From NCBI RefSeq assembly GCF_009908265.2, contig NZ_JAAATX020000014.1, forward strand, positions 62,001-126,000: 64,000 nucleotides of DNA, written 5' to 3'. Each line of letters starts with the position of its first letter. Position 1 is the first letter of the stretch. The translations under genes and the position numbers were made by a program. Source of the DNA: Paragemmobacter amnigenus. Its GTDB lineage: Bacteria; Pseudomonadota; Alphaproteobacteria; Rhodobacterales; Rhodobacteraceae. This document shows positions 20,989 through 38,942 of this stretch, one piece after another. The notes beneath the pieces were generated by a model. That model ran no database searches and was not told the origin of the DNA. It saw only the letters and a list, made by a program, of their open reading frames with translations.

Positions 20989-21019
20989 TTGAAGCTATAG
21001 TTGCTAGAGACATTAGGTT
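20989..21019 (+). promoter_or_regulatory. MerR-type promoter/operator of zntA
   Basis: The -35 is TTGAAG (20989-20994) and the -10 is TAGGTT (21014-21019), with a 19-base spacer, the overlong spacing that MerR proteins correct by untwisting DNA. The spacer begins with the near-palindrome CTATAG-TTG-CTAGAG (20995-21009). Transcription would start near 21026, which rules out the ATG at 21029 as the zntA start. Confidence 0.88.
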
Positions 21020-21067
21020 CCTGATTCGATGAAAGCAACTGCCCGCTCAGCGGCAGGAGGAATGACG

Positions 21068-23380
21068 ATGTCGGAAGCTGCACGCGAAACATCCTGTGAC
21101 TGGACGGTGACGGGCATGGACTGCGGGTCCTGCGCGACCAAGATCAAGGATGCGGTGACGCGCCTGCCGGGGGTAAGCGGCGTCGAGGTTGGCATCATGT
21201 CGGAACGCCTGCGCTTGACGCTGGATGAGGGACAAACCGGGCGGGACAAGATCGAGAAGACCGTCCGTGCGCTTGGCTATGAGATTGCGCCGCGCGCCGC
21301 CGGTGCGAAGAAGGACTTCGTTTTGCCGGGGACCCAATCCGTACCTGAGCAGAGCGACATGTATGAAGATCATGATCACTCCGCCCAAGCTCCCGCTGGC
21401 CACGATCATTCTGGTCACGACCACGGCTCTAAGGCGGCCAGCACCAAGCGCGACGATAGCGGTCACGGCAGCCCCGGCCACGTTCATGACGACCCCGCCG
21501 ACCGGGGCAAGCGCTGGTATCAGACCGCCAAGGGCAAGCTGGTCATCTTTACCGCCCTGCTGCTGGGTGCCGCCTGGGTCATCGAGTATCTTGCCCCCGA
21601 GATCGGTAAGTGGGCCTTCGTTGCCGCTTGCTTGATCGGCGTGGCTCCGGTAGCGCAGCGCGCCTTTGCGGCGCTGCGGATGGGACAGCCCTTCACCATC
21701 GAAAGCCTGATGACGATTGCCGCCGTCGGCGCGCTGTTCATCAACGCAGCGGAAGAGGCGGCACTGGTGGTGTTTCTGTTCGCCGTGGGCGAGGTGCTGG
21801 AAGGCGTGGCCGCCGGCAAGGCGCGAGACGGGATCCGGGCGCTGGCCAATCTTGTGCCGAAGACGGCGCAACTCGTTACAGGTGACAGCACGCGCGAGGT
21901 TCCAGCCGCAAGCCTGTCTGTGGGCCAGACAGTCCTTGTCCGCCCCGGTGACCGGATTCCGGCCGATGGCGAGATCGTGGATGGCACTTCGGGCGTGGAC
22001 GAAAGCCCGGTCACCGGGGAAAGCGTGCCCAAGACGCGCGGCCCCGGGGACGCGGTTTTTGCCGGCGCAATCAACACCGAGGCGGCCCTGCGGGTCAAAG
22101 TGACCAAAGGTCCCGAGGACAACACCATCGCCCGCATCATCCGTCTGGTTGAAGAGGCCGAAGAGGCGCGTGCCCCGACCGAACGCTTCATCGACCGGTT
22201 CAGCCGCTGGTACATGCCTGCCATCGTCGCCGTCGCGGCGCTGGTCATCGTGGTGCCACCGCTGGTCTTCGGCCAGCCCTGGGACACTTGGGTTTACCGC
22301 GGCCTTGCCCTCCTGCTGATCGGCTGCCCTTGTGCGCTAGTCATCTCGGTCCCCGCCTCCATCGCTTCGGCCATGTCCACCGGGGCGCGGCGTGGCCTGT
22401 TGATGAAGGGCGGTGCCGTGATCGAAGCGGCGGCGAAGGTGGATGTTGTGACCTTCGACAAGACCGGGACGCTGACGCATGGTCGCCCGCAGGTGACGGA
22501 TCTGGTGCCGTTCGGGACGACCACCGAAGCTGAACTTCTGGCCGTGGCGGCAGGCGTCGAGACCGGCTCGAGCCACCCGCTGGCGATTGCGATCCTGAAC
22601 AAGGCCAAGGACGCTGGCGTTTCTGCGCTGCCCTCGCAAGACGCAAAGGCGCTGATGGGCAAGGGCGTTGTTGCAACCGTGGGCGGCGCTGCGGCCTATG
22701 TGTCCTCGCCCCGCTACGCGATGGAGCATGGCGGGCTGGATGGCCTTGGCCTTCGGCAGGCGACGATTTTTGAGGAGGACGGCAAGACCGCGGTCGCCGT
22801 GTTTCGCGAAAAGGCCCCGCTCGGTCTGATCGCCATGCGGGACGAGCCGCGTGCGGATGCGAAAGACGCGGTGCGCCAGTTGACGGCGATGGGGGTGACT
22901 GCGGTCATCCTGACCGGAGACAACCCGCGCACGGCCGCTGCGATCGCCGGAGGCCTCGGCCTGAAGTTCGAGGCCGACATGCTGCCTGAGGACAAGCTTG
23001 CCTACATCCGCGAGATCGGAAGTAAAGGCGGCGTGATGATGATCGGCGACGGCATCAACGACGCCCCCGCGCTCAAACAGGCAAGCGTTGGCGTGGCAAT
23101 GGGATCGGGGACCGATGTGGCGCTGGAAACGGCGGATGCGGCCATACTTCGTGACCGGGTGACCGACATTCCCGCCACGATCCGTCTGTCGCGCGCAGCA
23201 ATGGCCAACATCCGCCAGAATGTGACCATAGCGCTCGGGCTGAAAGCCGTCTTCCTCGTGACCTCGGTCTTTGGTCTGACCGGCCTCTGGATCGCGATCC
23301 TCGCCGACACGGGTGCAACCGTGCTTGTGACGCTAAACGCCCTGCGTCTGCTGCGGTTTAACCCGGAACGCGAGGGCTGA
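21068..23380 (+). CDS. zntA: ZntA-type Zn/Cd/Pb-exporting P1B ATPase
   Basis: 770 residues from the ATG at 21068 (AGGAGG seven bases upstream). The N-terminal metal-binding domain has GMDCGSC (about 17-22); the Asp marks the Zn/Cd/Pb class as opposed to Cu. A His/Asp-rich linker at about 100-141 follows, probably a Zn buffer. Then come the membrane helices, the CPC motif (IGCPCALVISVPAS), phosphorylation site DKTGTLT, TGDNPRT and [10 protein letters not shown]. It exports divalent soft metals from the cytoplasm. It is the first gene of an operon with a methyltransferase, lspA, dsbB and a dsbA-like gene, and is driven by the MerR promoter at 20989. Confidence 0.95.
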   Translation: MSEAARETSCDWTVTGMDCGSCATKIKDAVTRLPGVSGVEVGIMSERLRLTLDEGQTGRDKIEKTVRALGYEIAPRAAGAKKDFVLPGTQSVPEQSDMYEDHDHSAQAPAGHDHSGHDHGSKAASTKRDDSGHGSPGHVHDDPADRGKRWYQTAKGKLVIFTALLLGAAWVIEYLAPEIGKWAFVAACLIGVAPVAQRAFAALRMGQPFTIESLMTIAAVGALFINAAEEAALVVFLFAVGEVLEGVAAGKARDGIRALANLVPKTAQLVTGDSTREVPAASLSVGQTVLVRPGDRIPADGEIVDGTSGVDESPVTGESVPKTRGPGDAVFAGAINTEAALRVKVTKGPEDNTIARIIRLVEEAEEARAPTERFIDRFSRWYMPAIVAVAALVIVVPPLVFGQPWDTWVYRGLALLLIGCPCALVISVPASIASAMSTGARRGLLMKGGAVIEAAAKVDVVTFDKTGTLTHGRPQVTDLVPFGTTTEAELLAVAAGVETGSSHPLAIAILNKAKDAGVSALPSQDAKALMGKGVVATVGGAAAYVSSPRYAMEHGGLDGLGLRQATIFEEDGKTAVAVFREKAPLGLIAMRDEPRADAKDAVRQLTAMGVTAVILTGDNPRTAAAIAGGLGLKFEADMLPEDKLAYIREIGSKGGVMMIGDGINDAPALKQASVGVAMGSGTDVALETADAAILRDRVTDIPATIRLSRAAMANIRQNVTIALGLKAVFLVTSVFGLTGLWIAILADTGATVLVTLNALRLLRFNPEREG

Positions 23381-23384
23381 GCAG

Positions 23385-24008
23385 ATGATCTCCGGTTTTG
23401 GCTGGGCCGCGCTGGCCCTTCTTTTCGGTTATCTGGCGCTGTTCTTCTGGGGCAGCGCCCTGGCCGCACAAGCGGCGGGGCGTCCGGTCTGGCTGTTTGC
23501 CCGTGCCACCGGGCGCGACCGGCTGGCGGCAATCGGTTTCCGCGCGGCCTTTGCATTCGCCTTCTTCGGGCCGCTCCTCTGGCTCGCCGTTCCCGCGCTC
23601 CACAAGGTTGACCCGCTCTGGACCGAGGGGCGTGCTGTCCTTCTAGGCTTGGTCGGGGTCTTTGTCGCAGGGCTTGGCGCGATGGTGGCCTTTGCCGCTC
23701 AGATGTCGATGGGATCATCCTGGCGCGTCGGCGTGGTCGGCGGCGAAACCGGCGATCTGGTCTCCGGCGGGCTTTACCGGTTCAGCCGCAACCCGACCTT
23801 TGTGGGACAAGCGGCACTGCTGGCAGGTGTTGCGATGGCGGTTCCCTCTTTCCCTACAATCCTCGCGCCAGTCCTGTTTCTCTGGTCGGCCAGCGCGCAA
23901 GTGCGGTCCGAAGAGGCCGCCCTGCGCATGGCAATCGGGCCCGACTATGATCGTTACGCCGCGTCGGTCCCACGCTGGATCGGCAGGAAGAGCAGGGCAG
24001 CAGAATGA
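23385..24008 (+). CDS. isoprenylcysteine/phospholipid methyltransferase-like membrane protein
   Basis: 207 residues with four to five hydrophobic helices and the C-terminal signature of the ICMT/PEMT membrane methyltransferase family (SGGLYRFSRNPTFVGQ...then a helix and EEAALRMAIGPDYDRYAASVPRW). Family members use S-adenosylmethionine inside the membrane; the substrate here is unknown. It follows zntA by four bases and overlaps lspA by four. Genes of this family are commonly found beside metal ATPases. Confidence 0.85.
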   Translation: MISGFGWAALALLFGYLALFFWGSALAAQAAGRPVWLFARATGRDRLAAIGFRAAFAFAFFGPLLWLAVPALHKVDPLWTEGRAVLLGLVGVFVAGLGAMVAFAAQMSMGSSWRVGVVGGETGDLVSGGLYRFSRNPTFVGQAALLAGVAMAVPSFPTILAPVLFLWSASAQVRSEEAALRMAIGPDYDRYAASVPRWIGRKSRAAE

Positions 24009-24490
24009 CAAGGGTGATGCTGATTTCGCTGATTGCTGCCGCAGTGGTGGCAGACCAGTTGACCAAGACCGCAGCGCTGTCGCTGCTGTCACAGGGGACT
24101 GCGGTCCCGGTCCTGCCGGGCTTCAACCTTTCCCTCGGGTTCAATACGGGCGCGAGCTTTGGCATGATGGGCGGGGTCATGGCAGGTAAGCCCCTCCTGA
24201 TGGCGGCGCTGACGGGCGCGCTGACTCTTGCCTTCGCCGTCATGGCATTCCGGGCGCAGCACGCGCTGGAACGGGCAGGTTTTGCGTTGGTCGTGGGCGG
24301 GGCGCTTGGCAACATCATCGACAGGGTGCGGCAGGGTGCCGTGACCGATTTCCTTGATCTTTACTGGCGCGACTGGCACTGGCCCACGTTCAACGTTGCG
24401 GATATCTGCATCACCTTGGGCGCGGTCCTGATCCTTGCCGCCTCGCTTCCCCTTCGTCGCCGCAAGGAGCCGCTTCTTGACCAAAGCTGA
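24005..24490 (+). CDS. lspA: lipoprotein signal peptidase II
   Basis: 161 residues, four membrane helices, with both catalytic aspartates in family context: GNIIDRVRQGAVTDFLDLY and FNVADICITLGA. It also has the N-terminal ADQLTK and NTGASFG motifs. It cleaves signal peptides of diacylated prolipoproteins. It is an accessory copy in a Zn/Cd/Pb operon, a setting known from the pbr lead-resistance operon where LspA (PbrC) helps resistance. The start overlaps the methyltransferase stop (ATGA). Confidence 0.94.
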   Translation: MTRVMLISLIAAAVVADQLTKTAALSLLSQGTAVPVLPGFNLSLGFNTGASFGMMGGVMAGKPLLMAALTGALTLAFAVMAFRAQHALERAGFALVVGGALGNIIDRVRQGAVTDFLDLYWRDWHWPTFNVADICITLGAVLILAASLPLRRRKEPLLDQS

Positions 24491-24914
24491 CCCGCAAACC
24501 CTGTCGCGCGACGACCTTACCTTGACTGCGGCCTTCCTGATCGCTCTGGCGGCCACGCTTGGTGCGCTTTTCATCGGTGAGGTGCTGGGCCAGATGCCCT
24601 GCACACTCTGCTGGTATCAGCGCATCGCCATGTTCCCCTTGGTGCCGATCCTTGGCCTGTCACTCTGGCGCGGCGATGGCATGGCGCGCGCCTACGCCTT
24701 GCCGCTGGTCCTGTCCGGGCTGGCGCTGGCGGCCTGGCATTCGGGCCTTTACGCAGGGTTCTTGCCCGCGCCGGTCGTGCCCTGCACCGAAAATGGCCCC
24801 TCCTGCACCGGCGAGGCGCAGATGATCCTTGGCCTGCCGATCCCCTATCTCTCAGCGGTCGCCTTTGCGGCGATCCTTGCCTGTCTCATGCTGCCGAAAG
24901 GACACCGCCCATGA
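24477..24914 (+). CDS. dsbB: DsbB-type disulfide-forming membrane protein
   Basis: 145 residues from a TTG at 24477, chosen because AAGGAG lies exactly seven bases upstream; a TTG 42 bases earlier has no such site. Four membrane helices, a first redox pair in MPCTLCWYQR and a second in PCTENGPSC, as in DsbB. It would reoxidise DsbA-like partners using quinone. It overlaps lspA by 14 bases and the following dsbA-like gene by four, so the pair is co-translated. Confidence 0.9.
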   Translation: MTKADPQTLSRDDLTLTAAFLIALAATLGALFIGEVLGQMPCTLCWYQRIAMFPLVPILGLSLWRGDGMARAYALPLVLSGLALAAWHSGLYAGFLPAPVVPCTENGPSCTGEAQMILGLPIPYLSAVAFAAILACLMLPKGHRP

Positions 24915-25570
24915 ACCGCCGCACGCTTATCCTTGGAGCCTCCGCACTTGGTGTTGCTGCCTTCGCGGGTGGCGCCTTCGTCCTGAAGCAGCGCCGCGAC
25001 GCCGAGGCAGAAGCGGCGGCCGCCGCCACGCCAACCGAAGATCAGGCACTGTTGGTCCGTGACTATTCCCCCAGCTTCGGCCCCGCAGATGCGCCCGTCA
25101 CACTGGTTGAATTTTTTGACCCCTCCTGCGAGGCCTGCCGTGCCTACCACCCGGTGGTGCAGGAAATCCGGCGGCAGTTCCCGACGCAGGTCCGCGTCGT
25201 GCTGCGCTACACCGTTTTCCACGAAGGCTCGGACGAGGCTGTGCGCATCCTCGAGGCTGCGCGGATGCAAGACAAGTTCGAGCCTGTCCTCGATGCACTT
25301 CTTGAGCAGCAGCCTGGCTGGGCTGTTCATGGCTCGCCTGAGATGGATGTGGCATGGGAGATTGCCGGGGCTGCGGGCCTTGATCTCGAAAAGGCCGAGA
25401 CCGACCAGTTCTTCCCGGGAATCACTGGTATCCTGAATCAGGATGCGGCCGACGTGGAAGCCTTGGCTATCCGCCAAACGCCAACCTTCTTCCTTAATGG
25501 CAAACGGCTGGAGAATTTCAGCGCCGACAGCCTCATCGCCGATGTGCGGTTCGCGGTCGAGAATAGCTGA
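24911..25570 (+). CDS. DsbA-like thiol-disulfide oxidoreductase (CEAC)
   Basis: 219 residues with an N-terminal RR-containing signal/anchor (RRTLILGASALG) and a DsbA-like thioredoxin domain. The active site is C73-E-A-C76 (DPSCEACRAYH), with cis-Pro region QTPTFFLNG near 192-200. The dipeptide EA is unusual compared with the PH of DsbA. It is coupled to dsbB and is therefore its likely redox partner. Placement in the zntA operon suggests protection or folding of periplasmic proteins whose thiols are attacked by Zn/Cd/Pb. Confidence 0.88.
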   Translation: MNRRTLILGASALGVAAFAGGAFVLKQRRDAEAEAAAAATPTEDQALLVRDYSPSFGPADAPVTLVEFFDPSCEACRAYHPVVQEIRRQFPTQVRVVLRYTVFHEGSDEAVRILEAARMQDKFEPVLDALLEQQPGWAVHGSPEMDVAWEIAGAAGLDLEKAETDQFFPGITGILNQDAADVEALAIRQTPTFFLNGKRLENFSADSLIADVRFAVENS

Positions 25571-25576
25571 CGGCCT

Positions 25577-26029
25577 TTAGGACCGGTTGGCGAAGGCCGA
25601 AAACAGGGCCAGCGTCCGCTCGCTGACATGGTGCTCGATGCCTTCCGCATCGCGTTCCGCTGTCTCGGGGTCAAGGCCGAGGCTGATGAGAAAGCGCAAG
25701 ACGATCTCGTGCCGACGCCGGCATTCTTTGGCCAGCGCGCGGCCCGCGTCTGTCAGAAAGACCGACCGATACTTCGCGCGGGTGATCAGCCCCTCGCGCG
25801 CGAGACGGTCCAGGGTCTTGCTCACGGTCGGCACCTTCACGCCAAGCCGGGCGGCGATGTCCACCGGGCGCGCCTCGCCCTGATCGTGGATCAGTTCGGC
25901 GATCAGTTCGACGTAGTCCTCGGCCAGTTCATTGCGCCGGGCTTCGCGCACACCCTGAAACGCCCCGGCGCGCAGGTCCGCGGGCCGGTCATCCGACGTG
26001 GCATGGGTTTCAGGATCTAACTCTGTCAT
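25577..26029 (-). CDS. mntR: MntR/DtxR-family manganese-responsive regulator
   Basis: 150 residues from the ATG at 26029. N-terminal winged helix (LIAELIHDQGEARPVDIAARLGVKVPTVSKTLDRLAREG), then the metal-binding dimerisation domain with ECRRRHEIVLRFLISLGLD and EGIEHHVSERTL, which holds the metal-binding Glu, Cys and His residues expected for MntR. It represses Mn importers when Mn is plentiful. It is divergent from mntH, with a palindrome between. The much longer open frame upstream is antisense to mntH and was rejected. Confidence 0.9.
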   Translation of the reverse strand: MTELDPETHATSDDRPADLRAGAFQGVREARRNELAEDYVELIAELIHDQGEARPVDIAARLGVKVPTVSKTLDRLAREGLITRAKYRSVFLTDAGRALAKECRRRHEIVLRFLISLGLDPETAERDAEGIEHHVSERTLALFSAFANRS

Positions 26030-26080
26030 CCGTGCAGTGTCGCACGGGATGGATTGACAAGTAAAGGCGCGGGGCAGAAT

Positions 26081-26096
26081 GTTAGCATTGTCTAAC
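26081..26096. promoter_or_regulatory. palindromic operator upstream of mntH (candidate MntR box)
   Basis: GTTAG-N6-CTAAC is a perfect inverted repeat with arms of five. It lies just downstream of TTGACA (26054-26059), overlapping the expected -10/+1 of a plus-strand promoter for mntH. This is where a repressor would block transcription. A metal-regulator box is expected here because mntR is divergent. Confidence 0.6.
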
Positions 26097-26149
26097 TTTA
26101 TGTGCCACGTCTTGTAGGGATCGTGGTCAAGCCGGGAGTGCCACGAGCC

Positions 26150-27475: not shown

Positions 27476-27504
27476 GGACACTTGACCTAGCGAAAGCAAG
27501 CAAA

Positions 27505-27569: not shown

Positions 27570-28163
27570 CTAGATCAGCAGCACCTGAGTGCCAACCTGC
27601 GCCAAATCATAGAGTTCAATGACATGCTCATTGTAGAGGCCGATGCACCCGTTCGATGATCTACGACCTATCTTCCGGGTATCATGGGTGCCGTGGATCA
27701 AATAGGCAGGCCAGGAAAGATACATTCCGCGGACACCAAGAGGGTTGTCCTTGGCGCCGCCCTCGACCATTTTCGGCCAGTCCGGGTTGCGCTCCAACAT
27801 CGAAGCCGTCGGACGCCACGGTGGGTTCACGGCCTTGCGGACAATTTCGGTCCGTCCGAGCCGCGTCAGTTCCTCGGACAAAGGGACTGAAGAGGGATAG
27901 AGCCGGTAGATCGACTGATCCTCTGACCAATAATGCAGCGCGCGTGACTTGGTGTCCGCCAGAATCGCACCGCCCTTAGTATTCTCAAAATAGTCCCGCC
28001 ACTGAGGCATCCGGAAGCTGGACACGTTGTTCCGCACGCTGCCGGATACAGGAGCCTGAAACTCGGTCGTGCCGTCCTGCGCCAAGGCTGGTAAGGCCGC
28101 AAGACTCGCCATCCCGACTGCTCCGCCCATCAAGGCCCGTCGCCCGATCCGATCATCGGCCAT
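27570..28163 (-). CDS. YkuD-family L,D-transpeptidase (first copy)
   Basis: 197 residues with a Tat-like or Sec signal (RRALMGG...LPALAQ) and a YkuD domain whose active site is HGTH followed by SSNGCIGLYN, the catalytic Cys being in NGC. It forms 3-3 peptidoglycan cross-links or attaches proteins to murein. It is clearly paralogous to the gene at 45211 (same RNNVSSFR/RNNISAFR start, same PLSEELTR/PLSDELTR block, identical active-site stretch). No metal-type promoter was found upstream of this copy. Confidence 0.92.
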   Translation of the reverse strand: MADDRIGRRALMGGAVGMASLAALPALAQDGTTEFQAPVSGSVRNNVSSFRMPQWRDYFENTKGGAILADTKSRALHYWSEDQSIYRLYPSSVPLSEELTRLGRTEIVRKAVNPPWRPTASMLERNPDWPKMVEGGAKDNPLGVRGMYLSWPAYLIHGTHDTRKIGRRSSNGCIGLYNEHVIELYDLAQVGTQVLLI

Positions 28164-28235: not shown

Positions 28236-28366
28236 TTAGCGGCGCACGGTTTGGGCCGCAAGCGCGCCAAGCTCCGCGCCGTTCATCTTGCGAGGCTTCG
28301 GATCGGCCCCTCGAAGTCGACCAACAGGTCTCGACACTCTGACATTGCCGTGATCCAGAAACGCAT
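28236..28366 (-). pseudogene. possible small gene with a one-base frameshift
   Basis: An ATG at 28366 with GAGG eight bases upstream opens a 27-codon frame ending at 28284. If one G is restored in the run near codon 20, translation continues in the next frame (GADPKPRKMNG...AAQTVRR) to TAA at 28236, giving about 43 residues. Both halves look protein-like, which suggests a recently broken small gene or an assembly error. It is divergent from lnt across the MerR-type promoter. No family recognised. Confidence 0.3.
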
Positions 28367-28369: not shown

Positions 28370-28400
28370 TTGCACCTCAAGTAGCTATAGCAATTAGCCC
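28370..28400 (+). promoter_or_regulatory. MerR-type promoter/operator of lnt
   Basis: The -35 is TTGCAC (28370-28375), followed directly by CTCAAG-TAG-CTATAG (28376-28390), and the -10 is TAGCCC (28395-28400), again with a 19-base spacer. The CTnnAG-N3-CTnnAG layout and its position against the -35 are the same as at zntA. Transcription would start near 28407, leaving a leader of about 24 bases. Confidence 0.72.
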
Positions 28401-28430: not shown

Positions 28431-29993
28431 TTGATCACTTCAGACGCACATCCCCGTTACGGCGGAAAGCTGATTCAAGTTCTGCCCAGCTTGGGCATGG
28501 CCCTGGCCGCTGGCGCCGTACTTGTCTTGGCCTTGCCACCATATTCGATCCTGCCCTTTGCGCTGATCGCCTTCGCAGTGCTGGTAATTATGTTGCGTGG
28601 CACGTCGTGGCCTGTCGCGTTTCGACTGGGATATCTGTTTGGATTGGGCCAATGCATACCCGGGCTTTTCTGGATCACCGAAAGTTTTCAGGTCGAGGCG
28701 GACCGGTTCGGATGGTTGGCCTTGCCTGCCGTCCTCGGTCTTGCGGCACTGCTGGCAGTGTTTCCGGCGGTCGCCTGTGCCCTTGCCGCCCGAATGGCGC
28801 GCGCCGGATTGCCGCTGGCCCTTTCGCTCGCGACAAGCTGGACCGGCCTTGAATGGCTCCGGGGGCACGTTCTGACGGGGTTTCCTTGGAATCTTGCCGC
28901 CTACACGCTGGCCGACTGGTTGCCTTTCGCACAAGTGGCCTCCCTGGTCGGCAGCTATGGGCTGGGGTTCCTCTTGGTGCTTTGTTCGGCACTGGTCGGG
29001 CTGGCTTTCCGCGCGCCTGCTCGCAGGTTGCAGGTCATCCGTTTCGCCAGCGCCACCGCAATTGCGGTCACCGTGGCCGGTTTCGGCGTTGCGCGCCTTG
29101 CTTTATCAGTTCCCTCGTCAGAGCGCGGCGCACATATCCGCGTCGTGCAACCGAACATCGCGCAAAGCGCCAAATGGGACGAAGGATCCCGGAAGGCCAA
29201 CATCCTCCGACTTCTCTCGCTTTCTGCACGCCCCGGCGACTACGATATCCTGCTTTGGCCAGAAACTGCATGGCCAGGGTTTCTCGCCGAGGACACTGGG
29301 GCCCGCGTCATGCTTGGGTGGCTCTTGCCGAATACTGCCGTCCTATTGGCTGGCAGTCCTGAGCGGGAGGTCACCGCTGACGGGACGGTGTACCGAAACG
29401 CTGTGCTCGCCATTGCGCCGGACGGTTCCGTCCTGACGCGCTACGCAAAGCATCACCTTGTTCCCTTTGGCGAATATGTGCCGTGGCGGAGTGTCCTGCC
29501 ATTTCAGCGATTGGTCGAATCTCTAGGTGATTTCCTCCCCGGTCCGGGTCCCCGCACCCTTGCATTTGGCCCACATCCCTATGCGGGCATCGCGATCTGC
29601 TACGAGATCATCTTTCCCGGCCACGTTGTCGATGATGCCATCCGACCGGACTGGATCTTCAATGCGACCAACGACGCCTGGTTCGGCACCTCCATTGGTC
29701 CAAAGCAACATCTGGCGTCAGCTCGGATGCGGGCCATCGAAGAGGGGCTACCTCTCGTGCGGGCCGCAAATACTGGAATTTCGGCAGTGGTCGATGCCTA
29801 CGGCAAAACACAGGCGATCCTGGACATCGAGACTTCTGGCGTAATCGACATGCGTTTGCCGAGGCCTCTACCACCGACCCCTTACGCCCGTCTTGGCGAC
29901 TGGTCCGTGCTTCTTCTTGCACTCGGCTCTTGGGGGGTTTTCGCTTTCTGGGTTTGGCGCGAAATGACTGTGGTGAAAGGAAGCCAGAAATGA
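28431..29993 (+). CDS. lnt: apolipoprotein N-acyltransferase
   Basis: 520 residues from TTG 28431; ATG 28497 is a possible alternative, because the only nearby AGGA is adjacent to the TTG. Multiple N-terminal membrane helices are followed by a nitrilase domain with the Lnt triad at about E278 (WPETAWPG), K340 (AKHHLVPFGEYVPW) and C390 (AICYEIIFPG). The E. coli residues are E267, K335 and C387, so the spacing fits. It adds the third acyl chain to lipoproteins. It is an accessory copy driven by a Zn-type MerR promoter; lspA lies 4 kb away in the zntA operon. Confidence 0.94.
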   Translation: MITSDAHPRYGGKLIQVLPSLGMALAAGAVLVLALPPYSILPFALIAFAVLVIMLRGTSWPVAFRLGYLFGLGQCIPGLFWITESFQVEADRFGWLALPAVLGLAALLAVFPAVACALAARMARAGLPLALSLATSWTGLEWLRGHVLTGFPWNLAAYTLADWLPFAQVASLVGSYGLGFLLVLCSALVGLAFRAPARRLQVIRFASATAIAVTVAGFGVARLALSVPSSERGAHIRVVQPNIAQSAKWDEGSRKANILRLLSLSARPGDYDILLWPETAWPGFLAEDTGARVMLGWLLPNTAVLLAGSPEREVTADGTVYRNAVLAIAPDGSVLTRYAKHHLVPFGEYVPWRSVLPFQRLVESLGDFLPGPGPRTLAFGPHPYAGIAICYEIIFPGHVVDDAIRPDWIFNATNDAWFGTSIGPKQHLASARMRAIEEGLPLVRAANTGISAVVDAYGKTQAILDIETSGVIDMRLPRPLPPTPYARLGDWSVLLLALGSWGVFAFWVWREMTVVKGSQK

Positions 29994-30207: not shown

Positions 30208-30238
30208 TTGAACCTCTAGTTGCTCGAGGTTTTAGACC
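30208..30238 (+). promoter_or_regulatory. MerR-type promoter/operator of the first sco gene
   Basis: The -35 is TTGAAC (30208-30213), then CTCTAG-TTG-CTCGAG (30214-30228), and the -10 is TAGACC (30233-30238) with a 19-base spacer. The dyad extends to ACCTC/GAGGT and is the best-matched of the set. Expected start of transcription is near 30245, just before the ATG at 30268. Confidence 0.78.
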
Positions 30239-30267
30239 GCACGCTGTTCTCATCATCTGGACTGTTC

Positions 30268-30861
30268 ATGCGTCTTCGTTCTCTTCAGATCATACTTTGG
30301 GTCGCCGCGACGGCGGCGGTCCTTGCTTTCGCGGCGGTGCGGTGGTGGCCGGCAACGGACGACACCCAAGCAGCAGCTTCTGTCTTCACGCCCGCCTTCG
30401 CGCTTGCTGACAGCGAAGGTCGCATCCGCACGACGGACGAATTCCGTGGAAAATTCCTATTGGTGTTCTTCGGCTTCACAAGCTGCCCGGATGTCTGTCC
30501 GACTACGCTATCCGAAGTCGCGCAAGTCATGGATGACCTTGGATCTGACGCAGGATCGGTGCAGCCAGTTTTCATCTCGATCGATCCAGAACGGGACAGA
30601 CGGCTTGGGCTGGCTGATTACACCAAAGCCTTCCATCCAGCGATCCTCGGCTTGGCCGGCAGCGAGGCCGAAACGCAGGCTGCGGCCGCAAGCTTCAAGA
30701 TCTTCTATGAGCGGGAGGCCGATACCGCTTCGCAAGACGGGTACACGATGGCGCACAGTCCCGGCCTCTATCTCATCGGCCCGGATGGCGCGTGGCTGCG
30801 TCAATTCACCTACGGCACACCGGCGGCCGAAATCCTTTCCGACCTTCAATCGAGACTTTGA
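30268..30861 (+). CDS. Sco1/SenC-family copper chaperone / thiol reductase
   Basis: 197 residues from the ATG at 30268, which fits the upstream MerR-type promoter better than the earlier in-frame start at 30220 inside the operator. An N-terminal membrane anchor (about 7-25) precedes a Sco thioredoxin fold with the copper-binding Cys pair in TSCPDVCPTTL and the third ligand His in YTMAHSPGLYLI. Sco proteins deliver Cu to the CuA centre of cytochrome oxidase or act as thiol reductases. First gene of a run sco, PCu(A)C, sco, M23 peptidase, DUF411. Confidence 0.92.
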   Translation: MRLRSLQIILWVAATAAVLAFAAVRWWPATDDTQAAASVFTPAFALADSEGRIRTTDEFRGKFLLVFFGFTSCPDVCPTTLSEVAQVMDDLGSDAGSVQPVFISIDPERDRRLGLADYTKAFHPAILGLAGSEAETQAAAASFKIFYEREADTASQDGYTMAHSPGLYLIGPDGAWLRQFTYGTPAAEILSDLQSRL

Positions 30862-30864: not shown

Positions 30865-31338
30865 ATGAATCACTTTCTTCTTGCTGCAGCCCTGACCCTC
30901 TCTGCACCTGCCGCGATGGCCTGCGAGACTGTAGCCATCGGCGATCTGACGGTTGAGCACGCCTGGTCCAAGGCGACCATCGGCGCGGGGCGTCCCGGCG
31001 TCTTCTATGTGGAGATCACGAACACCGGATCGACCGACGACGCGCTGGTTGGCATCGCGACGCCTGCAGCTGGTATGCCGATGCTGCATGAGACTGTCGT
31101 TCAGGACGGCATCGCATCAATGCCGCATGCGATGTCCATCCCTGTGCCGGCCGGCCAGAGCGTGCAGCTTTCGCCTGGCGGATACCACGGCATGCTGATG
31201 GGTCTGACGACAGCCCTGAAGGAAGGCGACAGCTTTCCGGTCACCCTCACCTTTGAAAAGGCCGGAGAGGTCACGGTGAATGTCGATGTCCTTTCGTTGC
31301 GCGCGGAGGGTCCGGATTGCGCCGACGCAGGGCAATAA
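30865..31338 (+). CDS. PCu(A)C periplasmic Cu(I) chaperone
   Basis: 157 residues with a signal peptide and the PCu(A)C beta-barrel. The Cu(I) ligands are visible as MPMLHE at about 73 and, about 25 residues later, HAM followed by GGYHGMLMGL, i.e. the His/Met set of the H(M)x10Mx21HxM family. It partners with Sco in loading CuA of cytochrome oxidase. It starts four bases after the first sco gene and overlaps the second, so all three are one transcript. Confidence 0.92.
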   Translation: MNHFLLAAALTLSAPAAMACETVAIGDLTVEHAWSKATIGAGRPGVFYVEITNTGSTDDALVGIATPAAGMPMLHETVVQDGIASMPHAMSIPVPAGQSVQLSPGGYHGMLMGLTTALKEGDSFPVTLTFEKAGEVTVNVDVLSLRAEGPDCADAGQ

Positions 31339-31919
31339 TCCTCGGCGCTGGAGGGGCCATCGGAGCCGTCGCCTTCATGCTGGGCGTCGGGGCTTATCGC
31401 ACGCGCAATAGGCCAGCTCTCAGCGAGGTCCTGCCCTTGCCCATCGGCGAGATGTCCTGGGCATTGACCGACCACCGGGATCAGTCCGTTCGACCCACAG
31501 ACTGGGCCGGTCACCCGGTCATGGTGTTCTTCGGCTTCACCTGGTGCCCCGACGTCTGCCCGACCACATTGAGCGACATATCGCTCTGGCTCGAGGATCT
31601 GGGAGCCGACGCGAACCGTTTGATCGTGGCGCTGATTTCGGTCGATCCGGAACGCGACACGCCCGCTGTCCTTGCGGACTACGTCAGCAGCTTCGACCCA
31701 CGCATCATCGGGTTGACGGGTCCCGCCGACGAGGTGGCAAAGGCGGCCGCAGATTTTCGCGTAACCTATCGCCGTGTCGACAAGGATGGCGGCGACTACA
31801 CGATGGACCACACCGCCGGTGTGTTCCTGTTCCACCCCGATGGGCGCTTTGCCAGCATCATCGACTTCCATGAAGACCGGCGCTTCGCCGTTCCCAAAAT
31901 CCGCCGAACCCTCAGTTGA
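31317..31919 (+). CDS. second Sco1/SenC-family protein
   Basis: 200 residues from TTG 31317, supported by GGAGGG six bases upstream, overlapping the end of the PCu(A)C gene by 22 bases. Signal/anchor at about 6-25, Cys pair in FTWCPDVCPTTL, SVDPERDTP, and ligand His in YTMDHTAGVFLF. It differs enough from the upstream Sco to be a separate paralogue and not a recent duplicate. Two Sco proteins flanking a PCu(A)C chaperone suggests sequential Cu transfer or separate reductant and carrier roles. Confidence 0.9.
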   Translation: MRRRRAIILGAGGAIGAVAFMLGVGAYRTRNRPALSEVLPLPIGEMSWALTDHRDQSVRPTDWAGHPVMVFFGFTWCPDVCPTTLSDISLWLEDLGADANRLIVALISVDPERDTPAVLADYVSSFDPRIIGLTGPADEVAKAAADFRVTYRRVDKDGGDYTMDHTAGVFLFHPDGRFASIIDFHEDRRFAVPKIRRTLS

Positions 31920-31935: not shown

Positions 31936-33099
31936 ATGATCCGCTCTGCATTTCTGATCCTTGCTGTCGCATCTCTCGCCCCGCTCCAGGCAGTGGCAGA
32001 TCCTCCGACGGCGCATTTGCCGATGGCATTCGAAGCGATAATCGCCGCCGGTGACACTTTGGACAGTGTCCTTGGACACGCTGGAGTCCCCCCGACGATC
32101 CGGGCAGAAGCCGCACTGGCACTCTCGGGAGTGTATGATCTGACGGACCTGCGACCTGGCCACCGGATCGAATGGACTGCGGCGTCCGCTGATCCGGCAT
32201 CGCTGACACGCCTTTCATTGTTCGTGGAAGATGGAGTGGAAATTGCTCTCACCTTCGACGGGCTGATAGCAGCACAACGGCTTGACCCACCGGTTCGTGT
32301 GATGCACCGGAGTGAGACCTTGACCCTCAACGGAACCCTTTACGACGCCTTGACGGCCCGAAATGCACCGGAACGCTTTGCGGTTGACCTAACCGCACTT
32401 CTTGCGGGCCAGGTCGATTTCAGGCGCGACCTCAAAGGTGGAGAGACCTTCGCGCTGGTCTGGCAGGAAGATCAGCTTCCCGATGGCACCATCGCGGGAG
32501 AGCCGCGCCTGAGTTACGCTCGGCTGGAGCTTACTGATCGCGTCCTCGAACTCGTTGCGACCGAAGCCGCCGGCCCGATCATCGTCTTTGAAGATGGCGA
32601 AGCCGTGCAGCGTTCAGCGGCACCCATCCTTGGTGCACGACTGTCGTCCGTCTTTGGGCGCCGGAACCATCCCGTGTTGGGTGGGGTTCGCATGCATACC
32701 GGGATTGATTACGCGGCACCCGTGGGAACCGAAGTCTCGGCGACCGGCGCCGGGCGGGTGACCTTTGCGGGTACGATCCGTGGCTATGGCACCACGATCG
32801 ACATCGATCACGGCGGCGGGGTCGTCACGCGCTATGCACATCTTTCCGAAATTGCCGAAGGCGTTCGCGAGGGGATGCGTGTCAAGGCTGGAGACGAGAT
32901 TGGCGCGGTCGGGGCGACAGGTCTCGTGAGCGGCCCCAACCTTCACTACGAAGTCCGTGTTGACGGCAGACCGGTCGACCCTAAGGACCAGGACGCCTTG
33001 CCGGAACAGGAGATCGCTTCGGCAGATGATCTCAATGCGCTCGCCACTTGGCGCAGCGAAACTGGCTTCATTTCAGGAACTGACGGAGAACGCGGATGA
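31936..33099 (+). CDS. secreted M23-family murein endopeptidase
   Basis: 387 residues from the ATG at 31936; the open frame upstream overlaps the sco gene and is ignored. Signal peptide, an N-terminal LysM/OapA-like region (AGDTLDSVLGHAGV), a mixed beta domain, then a C-terminal LytM/M23 domain with zinc ligands in MHTGIDYAAP (His and Asp) and LHYEVRV, plus the RYAHLS stretch. The full set of ligands suggests an active Zn endopeptidase cutting peptide cross-links, comparable to MepM. Its place in a copper-chaperone operon is unusual. Confidence 0.9.
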   Translation: MIRSAFLILAVASLAPLQAVADPPTAHLPMAFEAIIAAGDTLDSVLGHAGVPPTIRAEAALALSGVYDLTDLRPGHRIEWTAASADPASLTRLSLFVEDGVEIALTFDGLIAAQRLDPPVRVMHRSETLTLNGTLYDALTARNAPERFAVDLTALLAGQVDFRRDLKGGETFALVWQEDQLPDGTIAGEPRLSYARLELTDRVLELVATEAAGPIIVFEDGEAVQRSAAPILGARLSSVFGRRNHPVLGGVRMHTGIDYAAPVGTEVSATGAGRVTFAGTIRGYGTTIDIDHGGGVVTRYAHLSEIAEGVREGMRVKAGDEIGAVGATGLVSGPNLHYEVRVDGRPVDPKDQDALPEQEIASADDLNALATWRSETGFISGTDGERG

Positions 33100-33572
33100 C
33101 GGAATTTCGTATCGGCCGCCGCGAGGTCATCCTTGCAGCAACAGCCTTTGCCGTAACCCCTGCCGCCAAAGCTCAGGCAGAGGAAGAACCGCCAATCCAT
33201 GTCGTCAAGGGGCGTGGCTGCGAGTGCTGTGAAGCATGGGTCGACTATCTGCGGGAGCAAGGCTTCACGGTTACGGATGAGGTGTCGATGGGAACGTTGC
33301 TGATCCGCTTCAAGATGGACCAGGGCATTCCAGCAAAGGCATTTTCCTGCCACACGGGGACCGTTGACGGCTATGCTCTCGAAGGCCATGTCCCGGCTGC
33401 GGACATCCGAAGGCTCCTGGACGAGCGTCCTGATGCAGTTGGTCTTGCCGTGCCCGGCATGCCTTACGGCTCCCCCGGCATGGGATCAGAAGACAGTCGG
33501 GACGCCTATGACGTCCTGCTGGTTGGCCGGGATGGAAGTCTCGAGATCTTCACGAGCTATCAGGCAGCCTGA
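33096..33572 (+). CDS. DUF411 periplasmic metal-binding protein (first copy)
   Basis: 158 residues with a Tat-like signal (GRREVILAATAF) and the DUF411 domain: vicinal cysteines G-C42-E-C44-C45 followed by FSCHTGTVDGYALEGHVPAADIRRLL and PGMPYGSPGM. DUF411 proteins occur almost only in metal-resistance loci and are thought to bind Cu(I)/Ag(I) in the periplasm. The ATG overlaps the peptidase stop (ATGA). A paralogue lies at 36997. Confidence 0.9.
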   Translation: MTEFRIGRREVILAATAFAVTPAAKAQAEEEPPIHVVKGRGCECCEAWVDYLREQGFTVTDEVSMGTLLIRFKMDQGIPAKAFSCHTGTVDGYALEGHVPAADIRRLLDERPDAVGLAVPGMPYGSPGMGSEDSRDAYDVLLVGRDGSLEIFTSYQAA

Positions 33573-34154: not shown

Positions 34155-34212
34155 TGGCTTTTCCCTTCGCGGAAGGTCGGACCCGCAGGCAATCTGCGGG
34201 CCCGGATCGTCG

Positions 34213-35688: not shown

Positions 35689-35750
35689 GCGAATTCTCCT
35701 GTATCGCAACGTGAAAAGACTGAAGGCCCCGACAAAGCGGAACCATAGTG

Positions 35751-36107
35751 TCAGATCAACGTGCGTTTCGGAGGTGGGCCAGGTGGCGGGAGCGCCAGCG
35801 ATGCGGCCAGCAGGTCGTTGTTCAGGTTGATTTTAACCGAACGCGCGATGGCGACGACGCCCGGGCTTAGTGCGGGAAGAGCTGCGGCTGCAAAAAGACA
35901 ATGTTGCTGGCAAAGCAGACGTTGTGCATCGTCAATCGGGCTGCCTGCGGATGACATATGCGCGACATGGCCAGCCATCGCCATCATTTGCTCATGGTCT
36001 GCCTGAGACTGTTGCCGGCCATCCGCGAAGGCAAGCATCGGCAGGATCGCCGCCAGAAGATAGGCGGCGAGGATCAATGCACGCATAGGAAACGACGAAC
36101 GGGTCAT
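35751..36107 (-). CDS. small secreted His/Met/Cys protein (CopL-like) ahead of the oxidase
   Basis: 118 residues from the ATG at 36107; the longer upstream frame is not supported. Signal peptide (RALILAAYLLAAILPMLAFA), then a ligand-rich stretch (DHEQMMAMAGHVAHM), a CQQHC pair and a C-terminal PPPGPPPKRTLI. The same architecture occurs at 44832, 45954 and 19203. It lies 62 bases upstream of the multicopper oxidase on the same strand, the usual position of copL before copA. Binding of Cu(I) is inferred from composition. Confidence 0.75.
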   Translation of the reverse strand: MTRSSFPMRALILAAYLLAAILPMLAFADGRQQSQADHEQMMAMAGHVAHMSSAGSPIDDAQRLLCQQHCLFAAAALPALSPGVVAIARSVKINLNNDLLAASLALPPPGPPPKRTLI

Positions 36108-36290
36108 GCTCTCGCTTGTATCAGCGTGGTCTGGTCCCGTCATCTGACAGTTTGGTGTCTGGACCACATGGCCATAGCATCGACTGCAGCAGAATTGCCG
36201 CGTTTTCCTTCGTGTTGACTTGATAGCGCAGAGTTTACTGGCAGCCGAACGAAGGTCGCGAAAACTATCAATGATCTGACGGGACACGCC

Positions 36291-36902
36291 ATGAAACGAT
36301 TGTTCTTCGCCCTTTTCGCACCTCTGTTTCTGTCCGCCTGCGGCGCCGAACCGATTTGGGCCCCTGATGAGGCCGTGGCCGAGGCGCGCTATGAACATGT
36401 CGGCCCGACCTCGGTCACGCTCTATACCGTCCTGTCGACCCGCAGCGGCACCGGTGCGCATGCCGGGCTTTTGATCAATGGCTCAGAGCGTGTCCTCTTC
36501 GATCCGGCGGGAACCTGGCGACATCCGAAGCTTCCGGAGCGCAACGATGTCCATTTCGGGATCACGCCGAAGATGGTCGACTTCTACATCGACTACCATG
36601 CCCGCGAAACTTACGACGTTGTTGAGCAGACGATCATGGTTTCGCCAGAAGTTGCGGACCTGATCATGGCGCGTGCCAAAGCGTACGGCGCGGTGCCCAA
36701 GGCGAACTGCACAATTGCAATATCGCGCGTACTTGACGGCGTTCCCGGCTTCGAAAGCCTGCCAATGACCTGGTTTCCGAAACGGATGATGGAAGGTTTC
36801 GCAGATTTGCAGGGCGTTCAGACCCGCCGGGTTACGGACGATGACGCAGATGAGAATCACGGCGTCCTTCTGGTGCAGGCCGGGGACGCGCGTCTTCAGT
36901 AG
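36291..36902 (+). CDS. lipoprotein of unknown function, possible permuted papain-like hydrolase
   Basis: 203 residues with lipobox FLSAC (Cys17). The mature domain contains GAHAGLLINGSERVLFDPAGTWRHP and later KANCTIAISRVL. A His in an HAGLLI beta-strand followed downstream by a Cys at a helix start recalls the permuted NlpC/P60-like (YiiX/YaeF, DUF4105) fold, in which His precedes Cys. If so it would be a cysteine amidase acting on lipid or peptide. This is inference from two short motifs. It is not obviously tied to copper, but its neighbours on both sides are. Confidence 0.7.
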   Translation: MKRLFFALFAPLFLSACGAEPIWAPDEAVAEARYEHVGPTSVTLYTVLSTRSGTGAHAGLLINGSERVLFDPAGTWRHPKLPERNDVHFGITPKMVDFYIDYHARETYDVVEQTIMVSPEVADLIMARAKAYGAVPKANCTIAISRVLDGVPGFESLPMTWFPKRMMEGFADLQGVQTRRVTDDDADENHGVLLVQAGDARLQ

Positions 36903-36996
36903 TTTCTTAGTGATCAAGCCTATTGGGAGCCATACTACGCTCGCCACGCCCGGCCTTTGGCAGTATTTTGCAAAGACACATAAAATGGGGCATATG

Positions 36997-37464
36997 ATGA
37001 TCCTTGCGCGCCGAACTCTCCTTCTTGTCGGACCGGCCATCCTTGCCATGAGCACTGTGCCTTTGCTGGCCGAAGGGGACGAACGGATCCATGTGGTGAA
37101 GGACCCTGGCTGCCCCTGCTGCAACGCTTGGATCGGCCACCTGCGCGAAAACGGCTTCAACGTCAGCTTTGAAGAGCGCAGTGTCGAAGACCTCGCGGCC
37201 TACAAGCGGGAGCGCGGCATCCCGGAGAACCTGTCGTCCTGCCACACGGCGACCATCGGCGACTACACCATCGAAGGGCACGTTCCAGCAGCGGATATCC
37301 GCAGGCTGATGGCCGAACGCCCCTTGGCGGTAGGACTTTCCGTTCCGGGCATGCCATTCGGCTCACCGGGAATGGGACCAGAGACAGAGCGTCAGGCTTA
37401 TGACGTGGTCCTGGTCGGTCAGGACGGAAGCAGTACGGTCTTCACCAGCTATCCGGCGGCGTGA
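36997..37464 (+). CDS. DUF411 periplasmic metal-binding protein (second copy)
   Basis: 155 residues from the ATG at 36997 (GGGG six bases upstream; ATG 36985 and 36994 are also possible). Signal peptide with ARR, then the DUF411 pattern: GCPCCNAW, SSCHTATIGDYTIEGHVPAADIRRLM and PGMPFGSPGM. Similar throughout to the copy at 33096, but with CPCC instead of CECC. Stands alone, 95 bases after the lipoprotein gene. Confidence 0.9.
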   Translation: MILARRTLLLVGPAILAMSTVPLLAEGDERIHVVKDPGCPCCNAWIGHLRENGFNVSFEERSVEDLAAYKRERGIPENLSSCHTATIGDYTIEGHVPAADIRRLMAERPLAVGLSVPGMPFGSPGMGPETERQAYDVVLVGQDGSSTVFTSYPAA

Positions 37465-37503
37465 GATCCCCACCCGGTACACGCCGCGCCAGACACCACA
37501 GGA

Positions 37504-38151
37504 TCATCTTGGCAAGCCGACCTCGGATGCTTGCCAGGCTTCCAGAAGCTCATCCCGCGGCCCCGCCCCGTCAAGCGGTCTGATCGCGATGTCCAACCTG
37601 CGCGCCGCGTGATAGGCTGAGGCGGCCAAAAGACCGGGCTCTTTGCCGTAGGCGAGCCGGTAGCGTGCAATGAAACCTTCCATGCGGTCATCACCATTCC
37701 AGCCCTCCGCAAGGAGTGCTTGCACCAGAACGGTGCTTGCACGGCTGTACTTGCTCGCCGCGTCGTCGGCGGCCGGCTTCAGTCCAAGGACTACGACGAC
37801 ATCAGCCGGCTCGTCTGGTGAGCCAGTCAACCCCTGGACCAGTCCGGTGGCTTCCGCCGGAAGCGGAAGAACCTGCACGTCGACGCCGCCCAGATGCCCG
37901 TCAGAGGTTTCGTTTGGGTGCCCGTCCCGCTCGTCGGAAGCCAGTAGGAATCCTCGGACAGCCTCCGCAAGGTCTTGCTCAACATTCTCACCGACGACGA
38001 GAATTCCTGCGGTGAACGAATGCGCTGCCGCAATTCCAGACAGAGCGATCCAGAGTACCGCCGCGAGGGCCGGGACGGCCGGGATCGTCCTGCGAGCAGA
38101 GAAGGCGGTGCAACGGGTGCATTCCGAAGCGCGTCGTTTCGAACCACTCAT
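37504..38151 (-). CDS. secreted protein resembling a fragment of a type 1 periplasmic-binding domain
   Basis: 215 residues. A membrane/signal segment at about 25-44 precedes a mature domain whose end (FIARYRLAYGKEPGLLAASAYHAARRLDIAIRPL) is like the C-terminal half of branched-chain amino-acid type binding proteins. Total length is only half of that family, so it is either a truncated or a divergent single-lobe protein. The ATG overlaps the scsC-like stop (ATGA), so it is made with that thiol oxidoreductase and may be its partner. Confidence 0.65.
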   Translation of the reverse strand: MSGSKRRASECTRCTAFSARRTIPAVPALAAVLWIALSGIAAAHSFTAGILVVGENVEQDLAEAVRGFLLASDERDGHPNETSDGHLGGVDVQVLPLPAEATGLVQGLTGSPDEPADVVVVLGLKPAADDAASKYSRASTVLVQALLAEGWNGDDRMEGFIARYRLAYGKEPGLLAASAYHAARRLDIAIRPLDGAGPRDELLEAWQASEVGLPR

Positions 38152-38876
38152 TCTGATGCCCGAACAGAAGTCACGATTTCGGAAAGCTGCGCCTTTTCAA
38201 CAAAACCCGGGACCAACTGATCGCCCACGACAAAGGATGGCGTCCCGTTGAATCCGAGCGCCTCAGCCAGACGCATCGAGGTTGCAATGTGCTCGTCGAT
38301 CTCAGGCGCCTGCATGTCTGCCTTGAGTCTGTCCAAGTCCAAGCCGATTTCGCCGGCGACACGCAGCACCGTGTCGGCTTCTACCTTGCCACGCATGCCC
38401 ATCAGAGCGTTGTGGAGCTCAGCATACTTGCCCTGCTTTCGGGATGCGAGTGCGGCGCGTGCGGCAAAGGCAGATCCCTCGCTGAGGATTGGCCATTCGC
38501 GCATCACCAATCGGATGTTGCCGTCTTCGGCCAGAAGAGCGTCGACTTCCGGCATGGCGCGCTTGCAGTAGGGGCAGTTGTAGTCAAAGAACTCGACCAC
38601 CGTGATATCGCCCTCCAGATTGCCTAGAACCGGTGCGTTGGGGTCACGTTCCAATGTGTCCCGCTCGTTGGCCAATACTGCGGTTGCGGTGGCTGCCTGT
38701 GCTTCCGCTTGCCGTTCTTCGAGGGCCTGGAGCGCCTCGAGGATCAGTTCGGGGTTTTCGCGCAGGGCCTCTGCCACGAGAGCTTTGATGCGTTCATCCG
38801 AGACCTCCTGCGCGAAGGACGGCAAAGCAACTTGGAAACTGAAGACACTGGCTAGCAGCAGGGATTTCATTCGCAT
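38148..38876 (-). CDS. ScsC/DsbA-family thiol-disulfide oxidoreductase (CPYC)
   Basis: 242 residues: signal peptide (cleavage near SFAQE), an N-terminal helical segment (about 25-75) like the trimerisation region of ScsC, then a DsbA fold with active site C101-P-Y-C104 and cis-Pro in FNGTPSFVVGDQLVPG. ScsC proteins (suppressor of copper sensitivity) are disulfide isomerases that protect against copper. The upstream region carries a MerR-type dyad. It is followed by a coupled gene of unknown function. Confidence 0.88.
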   Translation of the reverse strand: MRMKSLLLASVFSFQVALPSFAQEVSDERIKALVAEALRENPELILEALQALEERQAEAQAATATAVLANERDTLERDPNAPVLGNLEGDITVVEFFDYNCPYCKRAMPEVDALLAEDGNIRLVMREWPILSEGSAFAARAALASRKQGKYAELHNALMGMRGKVEADTVLRVAGEIGLDLDRLKADMQAPEIDEHIATSMRLAEALGFNGTPSFVVGDQLVPGFVEKAQLSEIVTSVRASE

Positions 38877-38911
38877 CGGGCGGACCTTTCATTTCGTACA
38901 TTCTTTGAGAG

Positions 38912-38942
38912 TTGATGCTTCCTCAAGTGACTAGAGGGGCAA
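38912..38942 (-). promoter_or_regulatory. MerR-type operator/promoter upstream of the scsC-like gene
   Basis: Read on the minus strand: -35 TTGCCC (38942-38937) followed directly by CTCTAG-TCA-CTTGAG (38936-38922), with a possible -10 CATCAA at 38917-38912 after a 19-base spacer. The dyad has the same layout as those before zntA, lnt and the first sco gene; the -10 is poorer. A separate perfect palindrome GTCCAA-AC-TTGGAC lies at 38943-38956. Confidence 0.65.

Follow-up and report, generated by a model that had tools for sequence, protein, structure and literature searches.

Activation by distortion of the DNA in 19–20 bp spacers is established for the MerR family (PMC3431237, PMC9909328), and the regulons reported for the CadR/PbrR type are small and mostly comprise a divergon with an ATPase gene (PMC1526738). 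The pbr operon of Cupriavidus metallidurans combines a MerR-type activator and a 19-bp spacer with a P-type ATPase and a predicted signal peptidase gene, pbrC (PMC3431237). CadR of Pseudomonas controls an ATPase gene transcribed away from cadR, and two genomic sites, at cadA and at a zinc-ribbon gene, were validated for P. aeruginosa CadR (PMC12301328). A survey of MerR-family sites, with centres 7 bp from the −35 and spacers of 19–20 bp, lists 174 sites for 172 CadR-PbrR regulators and 110 sites for 100 CadR-PbrR-like regulators, about one each (PMC5045206). We analyzed a 64,000-nucleotide stretch of Paragemmobacter amnigenus (contig NZ_JAAATX020000014.1, positions 62,001–126,000; hereafter the window), in which a MerR-family gene at 20502 is divergent from a zntA-type ATPase gene and four promoters of one type precede zntA, lnt, sco and a scsC-like gene of a metal island. 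The locus shares the promoter geometry of these systems and differs from them in carrying the operator before four operons in one island, rather than in one regulated promoter region (pbr), at two genomic sites (P. aeruginosa CadR) or about once per regulator. The pbr operon also has a PbrB/PbrC fusion with phosphatase activity, and lnt, sco or scsC are not named in the passages compared (PMC3431237). The sequence evidence given below makes it very probable that a single CadR/PbrR-like MerR protein activates a multi-operon envelope-protection regulon from the four island promoters.

The four promoters have a common form: TTGnnn, directly abutting it CTnnAG-T-nn-CTnnAG, then four bases, and the −10 position at 19 bp (Table 1). 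The initial annotation had placed the dyad CTnnAG-N3-CTnnAG directly after the −35 at 20989, 28370 and 30208 on the plus strand and at 38942 on the minus strand; these positions and strands were correct, and each coordinate is the first base of a −35. The TAG-starting −10 that it had reported at 19 bp for three of the four was also found (TAGGTT, TAGCCC and TAGACC), the fourth (scsC) being CATCAA. As in metal-sensing MerR promoters, the dyad lies in a 19–20 bp spacer with its centre 7 bp from the −35. The bare dyad occurs five times in the window against 0.44 expected, a count attained in none of 100 shuffles; the fifth match (38727) falls within scsC and lacks TTG at the −35 position. The bare dyad is unspecific as a genome-wide search term, since the genome's own 4.14-Mb assembly contains 56 matches. 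When TTGNNN was added and zero mismatches were allowed, the whole assembly gave exactly four matches, all of them the island sites, and one mismatch gave 34 further matches. The same pattern matched twice in 200 random 64-kb windows, versus four times in the real window.

Two matrices were applied to the window, to fetched stretches of the same genome, to related loci and to random windows. The first matrix (30 bp) was built from 90 distinct sites of related loci, with the window and its two nearest relatives excluded. Its top four scores in the window (48.9, 41.9, 36.4 and 24.6, the last being scsC) were the four sites; the next, 5.8, was the reverse strand of the lnt dyad, and the maximum over 100 random windows was 7.1. 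On 3-kb stretches of the same genome (L001–L004 and L009–L034, the latter being 26 of the 34 one-mismatch matches) the best score was 4.4. Because the first training set contained near copies of the window sites (among 118 sites of the relatives, six equal to the zntA site, two at one base from sco and one at two bases from lnt), a stricter matrix was built from 42 distinct sites out of 77 MerR-adjacent ones, whose MerR was less than 85% identical to that of the window and which were at least four bases off every window site. This matrix also ranked the four sites first (zntA 46.7, sco 40.2, lnt 31.7 and scsC 26.1), with 6.9 as the next score in the window and 9.3 as the maximum of 100 random windows. 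The refuting condition set by the initial annotation, matches at an equal rate outside the island, was not borne out by the exact-pattern search of the assembly or by the matrix scores of these stretches and random windows. Beyond the four, no further operator was found in the window above 5.8 (first matrix) or 6.9 (stricter matrix), and the window's own L,D-transpeptidase genes are therefore without the operator, unlike those of Dinoroseobacter and Pseudooceanicola.

The conservation of the operator was examined in 80 loci, the best of a scan with four aligned MerR proteins and chosen by closeness to the 20502 protein; they represent 68 distinct MerRs, the window's included, and several (L114–L118, L122 and L124) represent one mobile cluster in nearly identical copies. 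The pattern TTGnnn plus dyad gave 118 matches in 77 of the 80 loci, among 145 N3 dyads, and the remaining three loci contain one-base variants. Other spacings between the half-sites were nearly absent (none for N0–N2 and N4–N9, one for N10). TA stood at 19 bp in 114 of the 118 sites, a set of exact-pattern matches in which the fixed letters are fixed by construction. For 77 sites the MerR gene is no more than 250 bp away, and 41 are distal; two overlap an assigned gene. The Markov control gave no sites. In the near-identical island of Tabrizicola piscis (L035) the four promoter sequences are the same as in the window.

Downstream genes were counted in 86 loci (the window, five plasmid loci and the 80 genome loci) with 140 sites, and runs were traced across gaps of up to 450 bp. 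The first assigned gene was zntA at 60 sites, sco at 25, transglutaminase at 15, CDF at 8, lnt at 6, dsbB at 4, M23 and L,D-transpeptidase at 3 each, scsC and ccdA at 2 each, and DUF411, dsbA and copA at 1 each, with none at 9; the classes copper ATPase, L,D-transpeptidase and cueR may be under-counted in the relatives. The operator thus recurs before lnt, sco, L,D-transpeptidase, CDF/transglutaminase and M23 operons, diverged relatives included, and the wiring is common to many related bacteria. On plasmids of Dinoroseobacter, Celeribacter and Pseudosulfitobacter the operator heads a single operon, sco-dsbB-dsbA-PCuAC-sco-M23-DUF411-ZIP-lspA-lnt, most genes of which are split in the window and its relatives into several operons, each with its own operator copy. 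All 21 lnt genes in the loci (two of them incomplete, in L054 and L115) lie in operator-headed runs, with 11 distinct promoters, as does lspA in 36 of 38 loci; these counts are not a random sample, because the genes were found through their nearness to the MerR gene. Six lnt promoters, four of them distinct, were aligned: the operator is kept, and the upstream flanks of L052 and L054 have diverged except for the block TCTGACAnTGCnGTGATC. This block (about 28338–28357, plus strand) lies just 5′ of the lnt −35 and is kept in all six aligned promoters, the two with diverged flanks included.

The full promoter pattern, TA included, was present in 65 of 149 genomes surveyed from the window's family. 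The operator type tracks the clade of the 20502 MerR: the pattern occurred in 60 of the 62 genomes that have a close MerR (E ≤ 1e-36) versus 5 of the 87 without one, and a reversed-pattern control showed no such difference (21/62 versus 26/87). The three other cut-offs gave 36/37 versus 29/112, 52/53 versus 13/96 and 61/64 versus 4/85. The 62 genomes contain 127 sites, with up to nine in one genome, and these per-genome counts are upper bounds for this regulator because promoters of weaker MerR-like genes also match. Among the 133 sites of the survey, 62 are not beside a listed MerR (56 in the 62 genomes and six in the 87), a count made with a partial MerR list, so that some of these distal sites may adjoin a weaker MerR. 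G104, the one further member of the genus among the genomes surveyed, has neither a site nor a close MerR, as expected for an acquired island.

The 20502 protein scored above the cut-offs of PF13411, PF09278 and PF00376 and has the MerR winged helix-turn-helix and DNA-binding domain. Its scores on the metal-specific models were 104 bits for CadR-PbrR (TIGR02047, cut-off 151.45), 92 for ZntR (TIGR02043, 167.95), 101.7 for CueR (TIGR02044, 147.4) and 93.2 for MerR (TIGR02051, 150.85); no protein match in the genome exceeded the TIGR02047 cut-off. We therefore describe it as CadR/PbrR-like, without assigning it to any of these families. The best relatives with solved structures are CadR (6jgv, E 2.7e-25) and a MerR-family protein (5gpe). 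Cys78, Cys113 and Cys121 align with cysteines of CadR and are the putative metal ligands. Among the 68 distinct MerRs, Cys78 and Cys121 are present in all, Cys113 in 64, and His130 and Cys133 in 66 each. The product of zntA carries CPC and N-x7-K...DxG, the signature of P1B-2 (Zn/Cd/Pb) ATPases, and it scored below two model cut-offs (NF008262, 856.9 of 1005 bits; NF033775, 761.8 of 1240). The initial assignment of the regulator to the Zn/Cd/Pb type thus holds as a likeness to CadR/PbrR, short of the curated cut-offs, and the Zn/Cd/Pb identity is based on the ATPase signature and the cysteines, which make Zn, Cd or Pb a more likely inducer than Cu. An amino acid–base code (PMC5045206) was considered for Pro16/Gln16 and dropped, since the numbering of positions could not be reliably aligned.

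The genes behind the operators are listed in Table 1. Operator 1 probably also drives lspA, dsbB and dsbA. The lnt product scored 306.9 bits on TIGR00546 (cut-off 132.9) and has the LNT_N and CN_hydrolase domains; of the Glu/Lys/Cys motifs characteristic of Lnt, WPE and ICYE were located by pattern. The second lnt (43% identity) and second lspA of the genome are on other contigs. The true start of sco1 is probably the in-frame ATG 3′ of the −10. The ScsC-like protein scored 35.8 on PF18312 (cut-off 25.8) and 90.4 on PF01323 (cut-off 25.6) and contains CPYC.

Table 1. Features of the window, with positions counted from its first base.
Feature	Position	Strand	Remarks
MerR-family regulator, CadR/PbrR-like	20502–20978	−	158 aa; Cys78/Cys113/Cys121; divergent from zntA
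Candidate operator/promoter 1 (zntA)	20989–21019	+	TTGAAG-CTATAGTTGCTAGAG-ACAT-TAGGTT; dyad 20995–21009; spacer 19 bp
zntA-type P1B-2 ATPase	21062–23380	+	CPC, N-x7-K...DxG, N-terminal CGSC
PEMT/ICMT-like methyltransferase	23385–24008	+	Same run as zntA
lspA, signal peptidase II	24005–24490	+	Second genome copy
dsbB-like	24477–24914	+	Annotation of near-identical island, coordinates transferred
dsbA-like thioredoxin-fold protein	24911–25570	+	Domain match; annotation of near-identical island
Candidate operator/promoter 2 (lnt)	28370–28400	+	TTGCAC-CTCAAGTAGCTATAG-CAAT-TAGCCC; dyad 28376–28390
lnt, apolipoprotein N-acyltransferase	28497–29993	+	Second genome copy; WPE, PFGE, ICYE motifs; alternative TTG start 28431 possible
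Candidate operator/promoter 3 (sco)	30208–30238	+	TTGAAC-CTCTAGTTGCTCGAG-GTTT-TAGACC; dyad 30214–30228
sco1 (SCO1/SenC)	30220–30861	+	Domain match; in-frame ATG 30268
PCu(A)C copper chaperone	30865–31338	+	Domain match
Second SCO-family protein	31377–31919	+	ORF translation; island annotation in relative
M23 metallopeptidase	31936–33099	+	Domain match
DUF411 protein	33096–33572	+	Annotation of near-identical island
ScsC-like DsbA-family protein	38148–38876	−	CPYC
Candidate operator/promoter 4 (scsC-like)	38912–38942	−	TTGCCC-CTCTAGTCACTTGAG-GAAG-CATCAA; dyad 38922–38936; CATCAA at −10 position
Copper-type promoters, TTGACCTTnC-N6-GGGAAG	51269; 51230	+; −	One at start of copper ATPase ORF listed from 51256, the other facing the opposite way
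CueR-like, second MerR-type regulator	53824–54294	+	Accompanies copper-type promoters

Other genes were noted in and around the island. A penicillin-binding protein 2 gene (39456–41411, minus strand) and two L,D-transpeptidase genes (27570–28163 and 45211–45810) lie inside the metal island; such genes are likewise found in relatives, where some bear the operator (L036, 21245; L103, 13946). On pDSHI03, lgt adjoins a copper ATPase gene (L036, 26687–27607), and that cluster contains all three lipoprotein enzymes. VirB-like type IV secretion genes at 374–11507 (minus strand), judged by eye from their translations, give the contig the look of a conjugative plasmid or island. In the T. piscis island, IS66-family transposase genes (L035, 23202–25583) lie between the DUF411 and DsbA genes, and on p5 of Gemmobacter fulvus the island lnt is annotated as short and lies beside an IS6 transposase (L150, 28935–29741).

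We infer from these features that the 20502 protein acts as a metal-responsive activator of the CadR/PbrR/ZntR type, whose dimer would sit on CTnnAG-N3-CTnnAG inside the over-long 19-bp spacer. Upon metal binding the DNA would be twisted, and RNA polymerase could then use the −35 and −10. Because the four island promoters share the arrangement, one sensor would switch on four operons together: zntA-methyltransferase-lspA-dsbB-dsbA, lnt, sco-PCuAC-sco-M23-DUF411 and, less surely, the scsC-like operon. Their shared logic would be envelope protection, in which spare lipoprotein-maturation, disulfide and wall enzymes and copper chaperones may replace or reinforce the targets of periplasmic thiol-reactive metals. 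The initial annotation had proposed that the regulator controls export, lnt, sco/PCu(A)C/M23 and scsC; the link to the MerR clade and the recurrence before lnt and sco in diverged relatives support this, with scsC, the weakest site and one conserved in near relatives only, as the part that stands least well. Taken whole, its observation was confirmed, and operator rarity, MerR-clade tracking and recurrence in relatives lend support to its interpretation.

Several observations weigh against a single-regulator regulon of this breadth. The regulator lies under the curated cut-off of every metal-specific MerR model. The loci were selected by MerR closeness, and the 77 sites near the regulator gene are no more than its own neighbour promoter. 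Two of the 38 lspA loci have no operator-headed run containing lspA (L113, and L039, which ends at a record edge). In the family survey, the cut-off for a close MerR was fixed after the data had been seen, with all four cut-offs agreeing in direction; five genomes have a site without a close MerR and two (G015 and G062) a close MerR without a site; and some promoters next to weaker MerR-like genes match the pattern as well (e.g. G023:C11 and G048:C31). The other points concern scsC, whose site lacks a TA −10. Of the 20 loci containing the best scsC homologues, one is that of the window, and only 3 of the 19 foreign ones have the operator upstream. The sequence CTCCAG-N3-CTGGAA scores like the scsC site (22.7 on the first matrix and 24.6 on the stricter one), so that neither the operator type nor the binding regulator can be told from a score of about 25 alone. 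Furthermore, the Neotabrizicola scsC site is on a plasmid stretch annotated with cueR and not with a 20502-type MerR.

The likeliest alternative is that the zntA, lnt and sco sites alone are functional and that the scsC site, the least certain of the four, is either the target of another regulator or a copy that is weak or in decay; we regard this as unlikely, though clearly to be reckoned with. CA for TA at the −10, the lowest score on both matrices and the absence of an upstream operator in 16 of the 19 foreign homologues favour it: four homologues have a match downstream of scsC (22.7, 22.7, 13.9 and 17.2) and 12 have no score above 12. However, the three nearest foreign homologues, at 75–77% protein identity, keep the operator in the corresponding position and likewise have CA; operator and CA are retained in G121/G010, in G034/Neotabrizicola and also in Gemmobacter fulvus p5 (L150, scoring 23.0). 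Conservation of the site is thus limited to near relatives, which share the weak −10: the same CA (38912–38917, minus strand) is common to L126, L127, L128, L150 and L151. The CTCCAG-N3-CTGGAA matches noted above lie 3′ of scsC (L129, 2538, plus strand; L130, 1154, minus strand) and have one arm off the dyad.

That the 20502 regulator senses copper and not Zn/Cd/Pb is improbable. The sco operon consists mostly of copper genes, and in L091 one of the 140 runs begins with a gene whose best match was a copper ATPase. The P1B-2 signature and the three cysteines aligned with CadR argue against a copper sensor, as do the separate CueR in the island and the position of zntA as the commonest first gene.

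We give still less credence to different MerR-type regulators binding the sites, for example the island CueR at the sco and scsC promoters. Sco, PCuAC and ScsC are usually copper genes, CueR and copper ATPases occur within the same window, the Neotabrizicola scsC site is accompanied by cueR, and cross-talk between CadR and a copper regulator is described in Rubrivivax (PMC11591864). Judging from the operator type, CueR would bind the promoters at 51269 and 51230; its half-site differs (CCTTnC...GGGAAG), and these promoters score −22.2 and −15.9 on the first matrix and −17.6 and −9.3 on the stricter one. Since CueR-type operators are negative on both matrices, the two sensors are distinguishable by sequence. 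The genome has five MerR-like matches, and no site scoring above 8 was found in the 1.5-kb flanks of the other four, nor in those of the second lnt and lspA. Chance as the origin of the pattern has a negligible probability: the dyad alone is frequent in the genome, but shuffles, Markov windows, reversed patterns, spacer scans and two matrices refute it.

For the single CadR/PbrR-like regulator, the promoter architecture and a signal peptidase in a metal operon (pbrC) are already known, whereas the breadth of the regulon and its lipoprotein content look new relative to the literature searched. No MerR-controlled lnt was found there, a weak absence because the search covered open-licence papers only. 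A parallel is the copper-induced lit2/lgt2 of Listeria and Enterococcus, likewise a mobile metal-resistance operon with lipoprotein-modifying enzymes, which differs in being Gram-positive, in using the transacylase Lit rather than Lnt and in responding to copper; copper is proposed to bind di-acyl lipopeptides through the amino group and sulfur (PMC8275575). In Escherichia coli, copper impairs lipoprotein acylation and trafficking, the copper-tolerance locus cutE harbours lnt, and LolCDE receives only tri-acylated lipoproteins; the copper effect matched the loss of Lgt rather than Lnt (PMC6538781), for which the lgt found in the Dinoroseobacter cluster is a better fit than the lnt of the window. 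Extra LspA and Lnt could outpace the poisoning of lipoproteins by metal, which is documented for copper and not for zinc, cadmium or lead. It is possible, though we would stop short of calling it probable, that, as a resistance mechanism in its own right, the mobile metal islands of these bacteria provide a lipoprotein-maturation line of their own that is induced by metal (LspA and Lnt, joined in the Dinoroseobacter cluster by Lgt). In that case thiophilic metals would poison the N-terminal cysteine of lipoproteins, and the sensor would have to raise maturation alongside export.

On this last reading, the regulon would be an envelope-damage programme under a cytoplasmic metal sensor. The CadR/PbrR-like regulator would have several probable targets, where the surveys compared list about one site per regulator. 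The matrix may be used to predict metal-regulon genes in these bacteria and their plasmids, and the sensor's operator before a spare lnt leads to the testable idea that some bacteria boost lipoprotein maturation in metal resistance.

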